DNA of 32,312 nucleotides from Herbinix sp. Lineage in GTDB: Bacteria > Bacillota > Clostridia > Lachnospirales > Lachnospiraceae. The stretch covers positions 1 to 32,312 of the forward strand of contig JAQZBA010000009.1 of NCBI GenBank assembly GCA_029239365.1, written 5' to 3'. Both the position numbers and the translations under genes were made by a program. Shown in pieces: positions 23,137 to 31,879 of this stretch. A model generated the notes under the pieces. It searched no databases. It worked only from the letters and a program-made list of their open reading frames with translations, and had not been told where the DNA came from. Positions within the stretch are counted from its first letter, which is position 1. Every line of letters starts with the position of its first letter.

Positions 23137-24717
23137 CTACTTTTCGTATTTGCTACGGTATTCTGTAACTGTCATTCCAACATACTTTTTGAAGGTTTTG
23201 CTAAAATACTGGGCATCGTTGAATCCAACCTCATAAACAACGTCATTTATTGTTGTCTGGGGATTTTTCAACAGCTGTTTCGCTTTTTCAATACGTACTG
23301 AGTTCAGATAAGAGGAAAAGGTAATATCCTTTTCTTTCTTAAACAGAACGGAGAAATAATACTTTGAAATTCCCACATATCCCGCTATATCATCCAATGT
23401 AATCTTCTTATTGTAATTATCATTTATATATTGGACAGCCTTCTTAATCAGTATTTCTGTATTATCAGCCCGATTACTGGAATTCTCAATGATCAGGTTT
23501 TTGATGAAATCACGGATGATATCAATTACTTCCTTCAGTTCTTCTGAATTAATGACTTTCTTTTGAAACGCAAACACATCACTGTCATCTTGAAAACAAC
23601 TGTCGAAGCGTTTGAATATATCATTAATCATATGAGACAATTCCAACTTAACCTCCAAGGAATTCCCTCGTTGTTTGTCCAATAATTTCTCCAGGGCATC
23701 GATTTTCTGATAGATAGCCTCACTATCCGCATCTTCGATATACTGGCAGAAATCCTTTACCATTGCTATATCGTATATAAAGTGATAGTCGTGTGGCCTT
23801 ATCATATTATCCTTGGTCAGATGCTCTCCATCGGATAAATAAAACAGATAATCCGAGGCTTCATAAATCCAATCCAGATATTCTCTCGCTTCTTCAATGG
23901 ATGTAGTGATCGGAGAATTCGCGCTTTTAAATCCAATGCTGAAATATTGCTTGATGGAGCTCTGTAAATATTCGATACATTTTTGAATTTTGAGATCACT
24001 GATATTTTTAACCATTAGAAAACAAGTAATTGATTTCCCAAACTGTTTCGAAAAGGCGTCAATCGCCTCATCCTGAAATTTATTCATAATTAATTCCAAA
24101 GAGGCTGCAATGATGTTAGTAACGTGATACTCTGAATTCTTAACATTGTTCAGACTAGCCCGGAAATCAAAGGTAATAAAGCAGTATTTTTCAGTATTCC
24201 ACTCTACATGAGCTTTATCAAACTCTTCATGGATAAGCTCATTACTTCGATTATCGCTTAATAAAAGCCCCAGTAGATACTCCTGTTGCCTCCTTAAAAG
24301 AAGCTTATCGTTTTGCGTATCCGTAACCTGTCCGATGGATAAATCTAATTTTTTCTTCTTTTCTAAAATTATTTTCTTAAGCTCTTCTTCTTCCATTTCA
24401 GCCTTAAGTATATAATCGGATACTTTTAATTTAATTGCTTCCTTTGCAAAGGAAAAGTCATCATAGCAGGTCAGAAAGATAATTTCCGTGTTTGGGTTAT
24501 ATTCTTTGATTTTCTTTGCAAGCCATAGCCCGTCCTGCTTCGGCATCTTAATATCCGTTATCACAAGATCCGGTTTCAAGGCTACATACTTTTCGTAAGC
24601 ATTCTGCCCATTGCTGGCTTCTGCGACAATTTCAAACCCAAGCTCCTGCCAATTGATCAAGGACTTAACACCAATCCGAACGAGCATTTCATCATCTACA
24701 ATCATTATTTTATACAT
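23137..24717 (-). CDS. YesN-family response regulator (receiver plus AraC output)
   Basis: 526 aa; receiver MYKIMIVDDEMLVRIGVKSLI...DLVITDIKMPKQDG...DYILK; AraC HTH TLDDIAGYVGISKYYFSVLFKKEKDITFSSYLNSVRIEKAKQLL...VGFNDAQYFSKTFKKYVGMTVTEYRSKY. Confidence 0.95.
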   Translation of the reverse strand: MYKIMIVDDEMLVRIGVKSLINWQELGFEIVAEASNGQNAYEKYVALKPDLVITDIKMPKQDGLWLAKKIKEYNPNTEIIFLTCYDDFSFAKEAIKLKVSDYILKAEMEEEELKKIILEKKKKLDLSIGQVTDTQNDKLLLRRQQEYLLGLLLSDNRSNELIHEEFDKAHVEWNTEKYCFITFDFRASLNNVKNSEYHVTNIIAASLELIMNKFQDEAIDAFSKQFGKSITCFLMVKNISDLKIQKCIEYLQSSIKQYFSIGFKSANSPITTSIEEAREYLDWIYEASDYLFYLSDGEHLTKDNMIRPHDYHFIYDIAMVKDFCQYIEDADSEAIYQKIDALEKLLDKQRGNSLEVKLELSHMINDIFKRFDSCFQDDSDVFAFQKKVINSEELKEVIDIIRDFIKNLIIENSSNRADNTEILIKKAVQYINDNYNKKITLDDIAGYVGISKYYFSVLFKKEKDITFSSYLNSVRIEKAKQLLKNPQTTINDVVYEVGFNDAQYFSKTFKKYVGMTVTEYRSKYEK

Positions 24718-24782: not shown

Positions 24783-26454
24783 TTAAGCAACATTATCGGG
24801 TACACTGATAATAACCGTTGTTCCAACTCCTACGGTAGATACGATCTGTATACCATAAGCATCTCCCAGATACAACTTTAATCGTTGGTTTACATTATTT
24901 AGACCGACCTTACTGAACCGGTTAATGTTCTGTTCCTGCTTGAAGATATTATCCAATACCGCTTTCTCGATACCACTACCGTTATTCGTCGATTCCATAG
25001 ATTAATGAATTTTCCACAATAGGTTGAAGAATCAGCTTCGGGATATTGAGACTTCTATGTTCTTCTTGGATGTCATAATGGACTTCAAATAATTGATTAA
25101 ACCTTAATCTTTGAATTAGAATATAATTCTCGATATATTCGATTTCCTCTTTCAGAGAAATCATATTGTTACCAAAGCTGATACTTACTCTTAAAAGCTT
25201 TACCAGAGCAACCAAGGCTTCTGCGATGCTATCCTCTCCTTTGATCTTCGCCATCCAACGGATTGTATTTAAGGTATTATAAAGAAAATGCGGATTAATC
25301 TGTGCATGCAGCACCTCCAGCTCCAACTCATTTTTATTGTGCTCTACCGCTACGATATCTTCCATCAGATTTTTAACCTGATTAACCATCTGATTAAAGC
25401 CTTCACTCAGATCGTCCAGCTCATTATATACATTGGATTCCACCCGGACATCGAGATTACCGGCTTCTACCTGCTTCATCTGATACATCATCAGTTCAAT
25501 GGGTTGCGTAATTTTTCTGGTATAGATTAATGCAACGAAAAACAATATAATCAGGGAGATAATACTACCTGCAATGAAATATAACTGCATACGATTAATC
25601 TCTGCATATAAAATAGCCTCAGGAACCGTCTTTACCACATACCACTTGTCATAATTAAAGGAGGAATATATCGCTACATATTTCTTGCCATGATCGATAT
25701 AGCTGACATAGTTTGGTTGAGAATCCTTCAACATCGTTTTAAAATAGCTGGAGCTTTTTACATCAACGGGTGTAAAATCATCATCCGAGCTGGCAATGAT
25801 ATTACCCACTGTATCGCATATAATAATCCTGCTGTTCTCTTCCTGGATATTGGTAAATGCTCCTGTCAGTATACTTTCATCGACCTCCATGGTAATAAAA
25901 CCCAATTCTCTTAAGGAATAAATATCGATTATCTTTCTGCCCATGGATAAATACTTCTTAACCATACTCCCAGAAAGGATCTTCACATTCTTCTCTGTCG
26001 TGGGGAACCAGACAATCTCACCCGAGGTAGCATCCAATTCATATCTTGGAAAGCTTTTCACACCATCCTGAAGCTCCGCACCTACCTGTTGAAATCCACT
26101 GGGGGTGATCATATAGATTCCTTCAATGATATTACTTGAAATATAATAATTGTATAATTTATCTACCAGCTGATCGGTGTCTCCGCTTTTGATGCTTTCT
26201 ATCAGCTCCTGGTTTGAGATAATGGAATTTGACATATTCTCAACATCATTTAAGATGTAATCAATATTGTTACCGATAACATCTACGGACTGCTTCTCCG
26301 ACTCTCCATATTGTTTTTTGAGAGTTTGCCTGAAATTCTGGAACATAGCCATAAAGATGATAAGGGACACAATGATGATAAAAGAGGTCGCTCTAAAAAA
26401 CTGCTTTCTGAAACTATGCTTTTCATTCATACCTTTCATATTCTTCCGCTCCAT
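24783..26454 (-). pseudogene. YesM-family sensor histidine kinase interrupted by a frame-changing deletion in the ATP-binding domain
   Basis: ORF 24982..26454 has TM/sensor/HAMP, H-box LHAQINPHFLYNTLNTIRWMAKIKG and N-box PIVENSLIYGI, then stops at DE*. ORF 24783..24998, in another frame, resumes with NNGSGIEKAVLDNIF...FSKVGLNNVNQRLKLYLGDAYGIQIVSTVGVGTTVIISVP. The approx. 26 residues between N-box and G1 box seen in the intact paralog (14439..16205) are absent. Confidence 0.85.
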
Positions 26455-26472: not shown

Positions 26473-27933
26473 TTAATGATGCTCATTCCATTGGCTCCTC
26501 ATACTGATTGCAACAAATTTAACATCCGAATCCTTCTGTACCATTTGAAACAGATTTGTTATGATGATATTTTCAAATTCATAACCGTTCTCCATCTTCG
26601 GCCGGTAATAAGCATATTCCTTTTCCTGGGACTTAACCATAGCCGGTACCTGCGGTATCCCCTTAGAATACTCCTTTTCAATAGAAGCTCTCAATGCTGT
26701 CCTGGTAGGAAGTGTCCCACCTGCTTTTTCCGTAAAGGATTTCATCTGAACAGTAGGTGAGGTAGCCCAAACAATAAACATCCAAGCTGCAAGTTTCTTT
26801 TTACTGCTTGAATAGCTGTTAATTCCAATTCCGGAGCCTCCATAGATATTAGCGCTACGTTGATTGCCCTTCGGCAATACATGATACCCTACCTTACCGG
26901 CCACAACCGAGTTCTCAACCGCGGATACGTTCTCATCCCAATTTATCATCATTGCTACCTCCCCCTGGGTAAAGGCGTTTGCTGCTTCGTCCCAGGTAAA
27001 GCCCTGTTTGCTTTCCGGATTTAATGCAATAATTTCTTTAAATCTCTTTAATGCTGTCTTGAATTCAGAGGTACCCGATTGTATCTCCGGTCCGGTGACC
27101 GTCCCTAAGCTTACGATTTTCTCATTTGTAAAATAATCACCGCCATAAGCACTTAAGACAGAAGAAAATGCTGTGTAAATCGAATTATGATTGGCTGACA
27201 TCGTGATACTTCCATACTTAACTTTAGAATTTTCTACATTGCCATCAATCCACCTGGATACTGCGATGAATTGCTCCCAGGTAAAATCACCGCTACCGGG
27301 ATCCGGTTCAAAGCCAAGGTCTTTTTTCATTTGCACTTTATATTGATCAAAAATATCCTGACGGTAAAATAAAATCATCGTTGTGGAATCAAAGGGTATC
27401 GCATAAAGCTTGTCCGTGTCTCCGAAATAGGAGCATACCTCCAATTGTTCTTTGGAGAAGCTATCCATCCCTCCTACTATATGAGGTAATGTAGGATCAT
27501 TCTCGTATTGATTCAAATCTTCCAGCCCGTCAGAAAAACGATTTAATGTCTTATAAGGATCAACATAAATTAAGTCATACTGCGCGGTCTTCGATATAAA
27601 TTCCATATTAATCTTTTCTTCCAACGTATTGAAATCCATTCTTTTAATATTGACCTTAATACCGGTGACTTCTGTGAATTTTTCACATTCCTGAGACAAT
27701 ATATTGGCATTTATGTTATCTTCACAAATAAAATTAAGGATGGTACCATCACAACTCTTCCAGTCAAAGGTTTCAGGTGCTTCTACATTGCCAAATTTAC
27801 TCTCCTGTTCTCCAAACAACTCCGTATTAACGTCAACTTGCTCCTCTGTCACTGAACAGCTGCATAATAGCATGGCTAAGATTAGTATCACAGCGATAAA
27901 ACAATAATTTCTACCGAATTTGCGATTCTGCAA
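26473..27933 (-). CDS. Extracellular solute-binding lipoprotein encoded with a two-component system (sensory SBP)
   Basis: Lipobox MLLCSC; SBP body (LNFICEDNINANILSQECEKFTEVTGIKVNIKRMDFNTLEEKINMEFISKTAQYDLIYVDPY...). Track start at 27951 includes the RBS (AAAGGAGG); a TTG at 27933 is the better start. No permease adjacent. Confidence 0.88.
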   Translation of the reverse strand: MQNRKFGRNYCFIAVILILAMLLCSCSVTEEQVDVNTELFGEQESKFGNVEAPETFDWKSCDGTILNFICEDNINANILSQECEKFTEVTGIKVNIKRMDFNTLEEKINMEFISKTAQYDLIYVDPYKTLNRFSDGLEDLNQYENDPTLPHIVGGMDSFSKEQLEVCSYFGDTDKLYAIPFDSTTMILFYRQDIFDQYKVQMKKDLGFEPDPGSGDFTWEQFIAVSRWIDGNVENSKVKYGSITMSANHNSIYTAFSSVLSAYGGDYFTNEKIVSLGTVTGPEIQSGTSEFKTALKRFKEIIALNPESKQGFTWDEAANAFTQGEVAMMINWDENVSAVENSVVAGKVGYHVLPKGNQRSANIYGGSGIGINSYSSSKKKLAAWMFIVWATSPTVQMKSFTEKAGGTLPTRTALRASIEKEYSKGIPQVPAMVKSQEKEYAYYRPKMENGYEFENIIITNLFQMVQKDSDVKFVAISMRSQWNEHH

Positions 27934-28163
27934 TTGATTACCTCCTTTCAATCACTAGACAAGTCAAATATCTATTTTACTATGTTTTAAAATACTGCAT
28001 GGCTATGGAATTTCACTATATTATGCATTTCATATAGTTTATTATTACTTGTTTCTGGTTTTTTAGCATATGATTCGTCCTGATTTAATCATAAATCACT
28101 GTCGAAGATTCTGCAATTTGTTTTTAACTGCACATCAGAAGCTCATTTTTTAAACGAGAAAAG

Positions 28164-28239: not shown

Positions 28240-29280
28240 TCATCCTATTTTAATAACTGCTTTTACAACATCATTCTTATTGTTGATAACGAAATCAAAG
28301 GCTTTCGCTGTATCTTCAAACTCAAATTCATGGGTAACAATACCGGATACATCGATGATACCCTTTGCAATCGCATTAATTGCCTTCGGATAAATATTTC
28401 TGTAACGGAATACGGAGGTGATGGTAGCTTCCTTAGCCATAATCTTTGCAAAATTGTATTCAATGATATCTTCCGGAGCCATACCTACGAGAACGATGGT
28501 TCCTCCACGCTTTACAAGATATGCGGTCTGTTTGATTGTAATTTTGCTACCTGCTGTTTCGATAACAACATCAACACCCTTGCCCTTAGTAATCTCATCC
28601 ATCTTAGCAACTGCGTCTTCTTCTCTTGCATTGATTACTCTGGTAGCTCCTAATTTCATAGCATAAGCAAGTCTCTTCGGCATTACATCAACTACGGTGA
28701 TATCAGTTGCACCATATGCTTTACAAGCGAGTAGAGTTACAAGACCGATACATCCGGAGCCAAGAATTACAACAGAATCACCTAATTTAACATTTCCCTG
28801 CGCTGCTGCATGCATACCAACAGCAAGTGGTTCAACAAGAGCACCTTCTTTGGAAGTGATATTATCCGGTAGTTTAAAGCACATATTTGCAGGGAACGCT
28901 ATATAATTTTCTAGGCAGCCATGGTAAGGAGGGGTAGCAAGAAATTCTACATCGGGGCAGAGATTGTATTTACCGGTCTTACAGAATTCACACTGTCCGC
29001 AGGTGCAGCCGGGCTCTAAAGCCACCTTATCACCAATACTCAGCTCTGTTACCTTACTTCCTAACTGAACGATTTCACCGGCACATTCATGTCCGAGGAT
29101 GAAATCCCCATTCACAATGAAATCACCAATGGAACCATGCTCCAGATAATGTACGTCGGATCCGCAGATACCTACGTATTCCAGCTTAACCAATACCTCA
29201 TTGTCTTTAATCTGTGGAACTGCGATATCTCTGATTTCCATCTTGTTTAAACCTGTCATGTATACTGCTTTATTCTTCAT
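28240..29280 (-). CDS. Zinc-dependent medium-chain dehydrogenase (polyol/sorbitol/L-iditol dehydrogenase-like)
   Basis: 346 aa; YVGICGSDVHYLEHG, GHECAGEI, structural-Zn cysteines CTCGQCEFCKTGKYNLCPD, and Rossmann GSGCIGLVTLLACKAYGA. Confidence 0.9.
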   Translation of the reverse strand: MKNKAVYMTGLNKMEIRDIAVPQIKDNEVLVKLEYVGICGSDVHYLEHGSIGDFIVNGDFILGHECAGEIVQLGSKVTELSIGDKVALEPGCTCGQCEFCKTGKYNLCPDVEFLATPPYHGCLENYIAFPANMCFKLPDNITSKEGALVEPLAVGMHAAAQGNVKLGDSVVILGSGCIGLVTLLACKAYGATDITVVDVMPKRLAYAMKLGATRVINAREEDAVAKMDEITKGKGVDVVIETAGSKITIKQTAYLVKRGGTIVLVGMAPEDIIEYNFAKIMAKEATITSVFRYRNIYPKAINAIAKGIIDVSGIVTHEFEFEDTAKAFDFVINNKNDVVKAVIKIG

Positions 29281-29393: not shown

Positions 29394-30374
29394 TTATGCT
29401 GCTTTCTTCTCTTCAACAAGAATAACCTTCTTCGTCTTCTTTGATTTGGATTTGATATCCCAGATAACCGCAAGTGCAATAATACAAGCTTTTACGATCT
29501 GCTGAATATATGAATCCACACCAACCAGGTTCATAATGTTATTCAAACATCCGATTATGAACGCACCGGCTAAAGTTCCAAAGGCTGTACCAACACCACC
29601 GGAGAAGCTTGTTCCACCAACAATTGCTGCTGTTAAGCCTTCCATTTCATATCCGATTGCACCATTCGGTAACCCTGCATTTACACGGGACATGAAGAGG
29701 ATACCTGCGATACCAACCAATACACCATTGATTAGAAATACGATGTATTTGTTTTTCTTAACCTTAATACCTGCTGCCACGGAAGCTTCTTCATTTCCAC
29801 CGATGGCATATAAGGAACGTCCCAGTCTCGTGTGTCTTAAGATATACCAGATAATAACTGTTATAACTGCAGTAATCAGGATGGAGATCGGAATGGGTCC
29901 AATGCTTCCCTGGCCGAAGATTACATAATCCTTTAATTGTAAGATATTCTGCCCATCGGTGATGAGTAATGCCACACCACGCGCGACCTGCATCATTACT
30001 AGGGTAGCGATAAAAGGCGGAGCATTTAATTGGGTAATCATAAATGCATTTACTAAGTTACATGCGACTGCAACTACAATAGCAACGATTACTGCGAGTA
30101 AAAGTGAACCCGTTGTCTTATAGGTGATGATCGATATTACACCGGATAGTGCAAGCACAGCACCGGATGACAAGTCCAGCATACCGCTGATAATCAATAA
30201 CATTTCGCCATAAGCCAAAATTGTACTTACAGCCAACTGTTTCATAATGTTAGAAACATTGTTTGGTGATAAAAAGTTCTTATTTAAGAAACTGCATAGA
30301 AAAATCATGACAAATAAAACTATAAATATGGAATACTTCTCCTTAGCTGAAGTATTTTTAATCTTCTCTCTCAT
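29394..30374 (-). CDS. RbsC-type (CUT2) sugar ABC transporter permease
   Basis: 326 aa; FLSPNNVSNIMKQLAVSTILAYGEMLLIISGMLDLSSGAVLALSG; GGNEEASVAAGIKVKKNKYIVFLINGVLVGIAG; GGTSFSGGVGTAFGTLAGAFIIGCLNNIMNL. Confidence 0.93.
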   Translation of the reverse strand: MREKIKNTSAKEKYSIFIVLFVMIFLCSFLNKNFLSPNNVSNIMKQLAVSTILAYGEMLLIISGMLDLSSGAVLALSGVISIITYKTTGSLLLAVIVAIVVAVACNLVNAFMITQLNAPPFIATLVMMQVARGVALLITDGQNILQLKDYVIFGQGSIGPIPISILITAVITVIIWYILRHTRLGRSLYAIGGNEEASVAAGIKVKKNKYIVFLINGVLVGIAGILFMSRVNAGLPNGAIGYEMEGLTAAIVGGTSFSGGVGTAFGTLAGAFIIGCLNNIMNLVGVDSYIQQIVKACIIALAVIWDIKSKSKKTKKVILVEEKKAA

Positions 30375-30385
30375 TTCTTACCCTC

Positions 30386-31879
30386 CTATTTCGTGCTAGT
30401 TGCAAATTTCATGATCGCTTCCTGGCTGAACTCATCCTTCCTTAATTCACCTGTGATTTTTCCCTGGTTCATAACATAGATTCTGTCACACATACCGATG
30501 AGCTCCGGAAGCTCGGATGAAACCATAATAACTGCTCTTCCCTGTTTAGCTAACTCAACCATCAGCTTGTAGATCTCAAACTTTGCACCTACATCAATAC
30601 CCCTGGTCGGTTCATCAAGTATTAAAATCTGCGGATCCCGAAGCATCCACTTGGCAAGTAATACCTTCTGTTGGTTACCGCCGCTCAAGGATTGAATTGG
30701 CGTATCCAGTGTAGGAGTCTTAACATTCATCTTCTTAAAGTACTCCCCAACCATCTTGCGCTCTTCCTTCTCATGGGCATAGCCGCTGTAAATTACCTTT
30801 TCCAAGCTTGATATGCTGGCATTTTCCATAACACTTCGAATCGGGATAATACCATATCTTCTTCTGTCCTCGGAGAGCATTACCATCTTATGCTTGATGC
30901 TGTCGGATACTTTTTTAATGATAACCTTCTTATGGTTAATCAATATGTCTCCGGTGGTGATCGGATCCAGACCGAATACGGCTCTCATAACCTCAGTTCT
31001 TCCGGCTCCTACGAGTCCGGCAAATCCGACGATTTCACCTTTTTTAACGTTGAAATTAATATTTTTAAATATTCCGGTACTACCTAAGTCTTTTACCTCG
31101 ATCAGCTTCTCGCCGATCTCTATGGTCTCCTTCGGATATACATTATCCATTTTACGGCCAACCATGAGGGAAATCACCTGATCCATGTTCATCTCGCTGG
31201 CCGGATGGCTTTCCACTACGGCACCATCACGGAATACGGTGATATCATCTGCAATACGGAATACTTCATCCAGCTTGTGGGAAATGTATACGATGCTAAC
31301 CCCCTGCTCCTTTAGCTTAGCTATTTTCCTAAACAGCATCTCAACTTCTCGATGGGTTATGGATGAGGTAGGTTCATCCATCACGATAATCTCTGCATTA
31401 TTGGAGATTGCCTTGATGATCTCTAGCATCTGGATATCCGATACGGTTAAGGTCTTTAATTTCTGAGTAGGCTTGTAAGGTAAATTCTCTGCTTCCAGAA
31501 ATTCAAGAGTCTTCTTTCTTAATTGCTTCCAATCAACCTTTCCAAGCTTGGATACCGGCAACCTGCCTAAGAATAAATTCTCTTCTATGGACATCTCCGG
31601 AACATAATTTAACTCCTGTGCTATCATAGCTATACCATGCTGTCTGGCATGAATTGGACTTTGGATTTTAACCGGTTTCTCATCGATAAAAATCTGCCCG
31701 GCATCCGGTTTATAAATACCATTGATGATTTTCATCAGTGTGGATTTGCCTGCCCCATTTTCTCCACATAGAGCATGAACCGTACCTCGTCTAACTGCAA
31801 AATCAATTTTATTCAAAGCTTTCACACCAGGAAAGGATTTGTCTATCTGGGAGACCCGAAGCTTAATATCTTGTCTCAT
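30386..31879 (-). CDS. RbsA/MglA-type (CUT2) sugar ABC transporter ATP-binding protein, tandem ATPase domains
   Basis: 497 aa; Walker A GENGAGKSTLMKI; Walker B IIVMDEPTSSIT; second domain GLVGAGRTEVMRAVFG, LSGGNQQKVLLAKWMLRDPQILILDEPTRGIDVGAK; RBS GGGAGG upstream. Confidence 0.95.
   Translation of the reverse strand: MRQDIKLRVSQIDKSFPGVKALNKIDFAVRRGTVHALCGENGAGKSTLMKIINGIYKPDAGQIFIDEKPVKIQSPIHARQHGIAMIAQELNYVPEMSIEENLFLGRLPVSKLGKVDWKQLRKKTLEFLEAENLPYKPTQKLKTLTVSDIQMLEIIKAISNNAEIIVMDEPTSSITHREVEMLFRKIAKLKEQGVSIVYISHKLDEVFRIADDITVFRDGAVVESHPASEMNMDQVISLMVGRKMDNVYPKETIEIGEKLIEVKDLGSTGIFKNINFNVKKGEIVGFAGLVGAGRTEVMRAVFGLDPITTGDILINHKKVIIKKVSDSIKHKMVMLSEDRRRYGIIPIRSVMENASISSLEKVIYSGYAHEKEERKMVGEYFKKMNVKTPTLDTPIQSLSGGNQQKVLLAKWMLRDPQILILDEPTRGIDVGAKFEIYKLMVELAKQGRAVIMVSSELPELIGMCDRIYVMNQGKITGELRKDEFSQEAIMKFATSTK

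Follow-up and report, generated by a model that had tools for sequence, protein, structure and literature searches.

Histidine kinases of the YesM type combine a His_kinase domain (PF06580) with a HATPase_c domain (PF02518), with a kinase core as in 6swj and 6swk. In the CuaDSR system of Ruminiclostridium cellulolyticum, the gene for a solute-binding protein (SBP) adjoins those for a sensor kinase and an AraC-type response regulator, and overproduction of the regulator alone neither replaced the sensor nor restored growth on cellobiose (PMC10384115). The 32,312-nucleotide stretch of Herbinix sp. DNA analysed here, referred to as the window, resembles CuaDSR in gene arrangement, but its likely targets differ (a CUT2-type transporter and a zinc dehydrogenase) and its kinase is broken. 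The window kinase follows other YesM-type kinases in domain order and in sequence up to the N box, whereas it lacks the stretch from the N box to the G1 box and its ATP lid is out of frame. Sequence comparison favours, at a probability of about 0.75, the reading that this histidine kinase gene is a pseudogene created by a recent 80-nt deletion in the sequenced cell or population.

The kinase gene (24783–26454, minus strand) lies between two genes on the same strand that are intact, as the sequence-only reading had suggested. The lipoprotein-like SBP (SBP_bac_1; 26473–27951) has 492 aa, and the adjacent response regulator (Response_reg and AraC HTH domains; 23137–24717) has 526 aa. As expected of an SBP–kinase–regulator three-component system, these adjacent genes were conserved as a block in each of the six relatives for which flanking sequence was retrieved (G027, G024, G030, G012, G132 and G203; the SBP gene of G012 is cut by a contig end). 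Beyond the SBP gene the minus strand carries a zinc dehydrogenase (28240–29280), a CUT2-type permease (29394–30374) and a CUT2-type ATPase (30386–31879). The block likewise adjoins a CUT2-type ABC transporter and a zinc dehydrogenase in G027, G024, G132 and G203, these genes being on the regulator's side of the block in G132 and G203; the contigs of G030 and G012 end within or at the SBP gene, and the side that would match these genes lies outside them. Family matches of the 28240–31879 genes indicate uptake of monosaccharides and a dehydrogenase of the polyol/sugar type, and these genes are likely targets of the SBP–kinase–regulator system. Gene order suggests that the SBP binds the outer domain of the kinase. 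The other genes of the window look whole by length and domain content; a 553-aa frame at 401–2062 gave no Pfam match at E <= 1e-5.

The CUT2-type ATPase, permease and zinc dehydrogenase are 90–95% identical to those of same-genus relatives and the adjacent SBP, kinase and regulator only 75–81%; judged from these identities, the sensory block is evolving faster than its likely targets. At L026 (G203:C22) the sensory block is beside CUT2 genes in another gene order, and the dehydrogenase is only 55% identical.

The kinase gene is open up to PIVENSLIYGIDE*; the final 66 codons lie in a different frame. The 5' part (24982–26454) comprises 490 codons that specify a dCache_1-like sensor, HAMP, a His_kinase domain with the QINPHFLYN motif and the N box PIVENSLIYGIDE, followed by a premature TAA, such that the frame terminates as YGI-D-E-TAA. 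Its ATG is preceded by GGAGGG, a good match to a ribosome-binding site. The rest of the kinase (NGSGIEKAVLDNIFKQEQNINRFSKVGLNNVNQRLKLYLGDAYG...) is found directly 3' of this frame but in a different one, with the continuation (NGSGIEKAVLDNIF...) running to position 24783. This out-of-frame 3' remnant (24783–24983) consists of 66 codons and a stop, contains the NGSGI remainder of the G1 box, the ATP lid and the G2 region, and is 76–85% identical to same-genus orthologs. Both halves match a single ortholog, at 80% and 78% identity, in the same order and orientation, which excludes chance. Both the YGI-DE* terminus with the remainder in another frame and the 7 nt (24984–24990) separating YGI from NGSGI had been read correctly from the sequence at the outset.

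DNA-level alignments with four same-genus orthologs (G027, G024, G030 and G012) established the size of the lesion, as each contains exactly 80 nt extra at the break. The junction is at 24984–24986 on the minus strand, where the A at 24985 can be assigned to either flank of the break. Microhomology amounts to 1 nt, or to 2 nt should the ancestral flank have read GAAT like that of G027, and no repeat of note was seen at the junction. The missing segment covers the 26 codons that follow YGIDE and two of the three bases encoding the G1-box Asp; the G027 ortholog reads YGIDE-(26 residues)-DNGSGIE at this site, and the other same-genus orthologs differ slightly from it, two having YCIDE. The internal deletion proposed by the sequence-only reading is supported, but its size of ~74 nt has to be corrected to 80 nt, since the loop is two codons shorter in the paralog from which that figure was derived. 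The accompanying frame-shift argument (a remainder of 2 on division by 3) holds, since 80 mod 3 = 2.

The 490-residue product keeps the sensor, HAMP and His_kinase domains, the last with its phospho-acceptor motif (PF06580, E = 3.5e-26, residues 378–454), and has lost most of the ATP-binding domain. A domain search did not detect HATPase_c in the 490-aa frame, and the out-of-frame remnant gave only a partial match (profile positions 41–109). A functional YesM-type kinase would carry HATPase_c as a contiguous domain, its N, G1 and G2 boxes all in the same frame, and the window copy does not. The intact G027 ortholog matches 6swj across the whole kinase core, and in this alignment the deleted segment maps between the N box and the G1-box DNG. 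From what is known of the HATPase_c (Bergerat) fold, a kinase that lacks the N-to-G1 region and the G1 Asp would be unable to bind ATP, and so unable to phosphorylate its regulator.

Full-length kinase frames of 582–610 codons were found in 19 of 19 relatives from the genus, family and order. This set comprised the four same-genus orthologs (76–80% identical), three more distant members of the genus (38–40%), two family members (50–55%) and ten more genomes sampled from the order (37–51%), a draw in which G132 recurred; the kinases of the more distant relatives may be paralogs, and the truncated form was present in none of them. In G580 a single flagged TAA leaves the 582-codon frame unbroken, with the whole ATPase end inside it. 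The disabling change is therefore absent from the orthologs, and a conserved split or programmed event, to which, in the sequence-only reading, a truncated form shared by many species would have pointed, is excluded. A literature search for broken YesM kinases returned nothing specific.

At sites where the compared same-genus orthologs agree, the window alone differs at 31 of 347 positions before the lesion and at 4 of 51 after it (Fisher P = 1). The same measure gave 22 of 352 for the response regulator and, with three orthologs compared, 32 of 332 for the SBP. Amino acid identity to the same-genus orthologs after the lesion (0.76–0.85) was no lower than before it (0.75–0.80), and no extra stops have arisen in the 3' remnant. 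For most pairs dS had reached saturation or could not be estimated, so dN/dS was left out of the age argument. Older decay of the kinase gene was rejected, as no relaxation was seen. Because the remnant, the upstream half and the partner genes are without decay or loss of constraint, the lesion appears recent; on these comparisons it is either young or not real.

The second of these options is the main rival. The genome is a 3.8-Mb draft in 433 contigs and 81% complete, so the lesion might reflect misassembly or a minority variant. If the gene were intact in the organism and 80 nt had been lost during draft assembly, the remnant would be expected to be as constrained as the rest of the gene, which is what was observed. 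Assemblers do not readily join sequences with only 1–2 shared bases, however, and the junction offers no repeat to collapse. Moreover, the window copy is the sole case of an internal stop among the listed kinases of this genome, and the apparent wholeness of the window's other genes also speaks against an artefact. The 1–2 shared bases and the lack of internal stops in the other listed kinases favour a junction that truly exists, if perhaps not in every cell, and we consider an artefact unlikely.

Explanations in which the truncated gene still functions fare worse. The 490-residue protein could, for instance, form dimers with a different YesM kinase and serve as an ATPase-less receptor, or it could restrain the regulator; its sensor, HAMP and phospho-acceptor domains are intact, its start has a ribosome-binding site and the genome (G000) has ~30 other matches to such kinases, a large sensing repertoire. 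The form is nevertheless absent from all relatives found, the other kinases are only 20–36% identical to the broken one (next best about 27%), which makes pairing unlikely, and the still-constrained remnant suggests too little time for a new role. We regard a working truncated protein as very improbable, and its retention as a receptor that reroutes the SBP signal via another kinase of the same genome as slightly more so. Production of a working kinase by programmed frameshifting, a split gene or reinitiation is hardly credible. An ATG at 24996–24998 begins a frame of 71 codons overlapping the stop, but no ribosome-binding site precedes it, the architecture is not conserved among the 19 relatives, and the missing 26 residues and G1 Asp cannot be supplied, being absent from the DNA. 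Unless the deletion itself is false, a split or programmed architecture is rejected.

No second copy of the broken kinase was found in the assembled genome (81% complete), and a backup copy elsewhere was rejected for the assembled part. A separate scan of genome contigs yielded no ortholog. A short kinase of 366 aa (C13) was rejected as a parallel case, as its frame ends normally, its ATPase domain is intact and a regulator gene follows it.

The best-supported reading, given the missing 80 nt and the still-constrained remnant, is thus the one first proposed from the sequence, in which a deletion within the ATPase domain has recently inactivated the kinase. The deletion strips the N-to-G1-box stretch and the G1 Asp codon and puts the ATP lid out of frame, leaving a 490-aa product probably incapable of ATP binding or autophosphorylation. 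The SBP's signal would then fail to reach the intact response regulator, and this input would be lost to the adjacent CUT2 transporter and dehydrogenase genes. By analogy, the insufficiency of the CuaDSR regulator alone (PMC10384115) supports such a loss of signalling. Since the assembled genome contains no close copy of the kinase, the regulator probably lies idle, barring input from a different kinase. The significance is mostly confined to this genome, which would provide a clean case of very recent loss of one sensor, and regulation of the nearby genes for sugar uptake may be disturbed in this strain.
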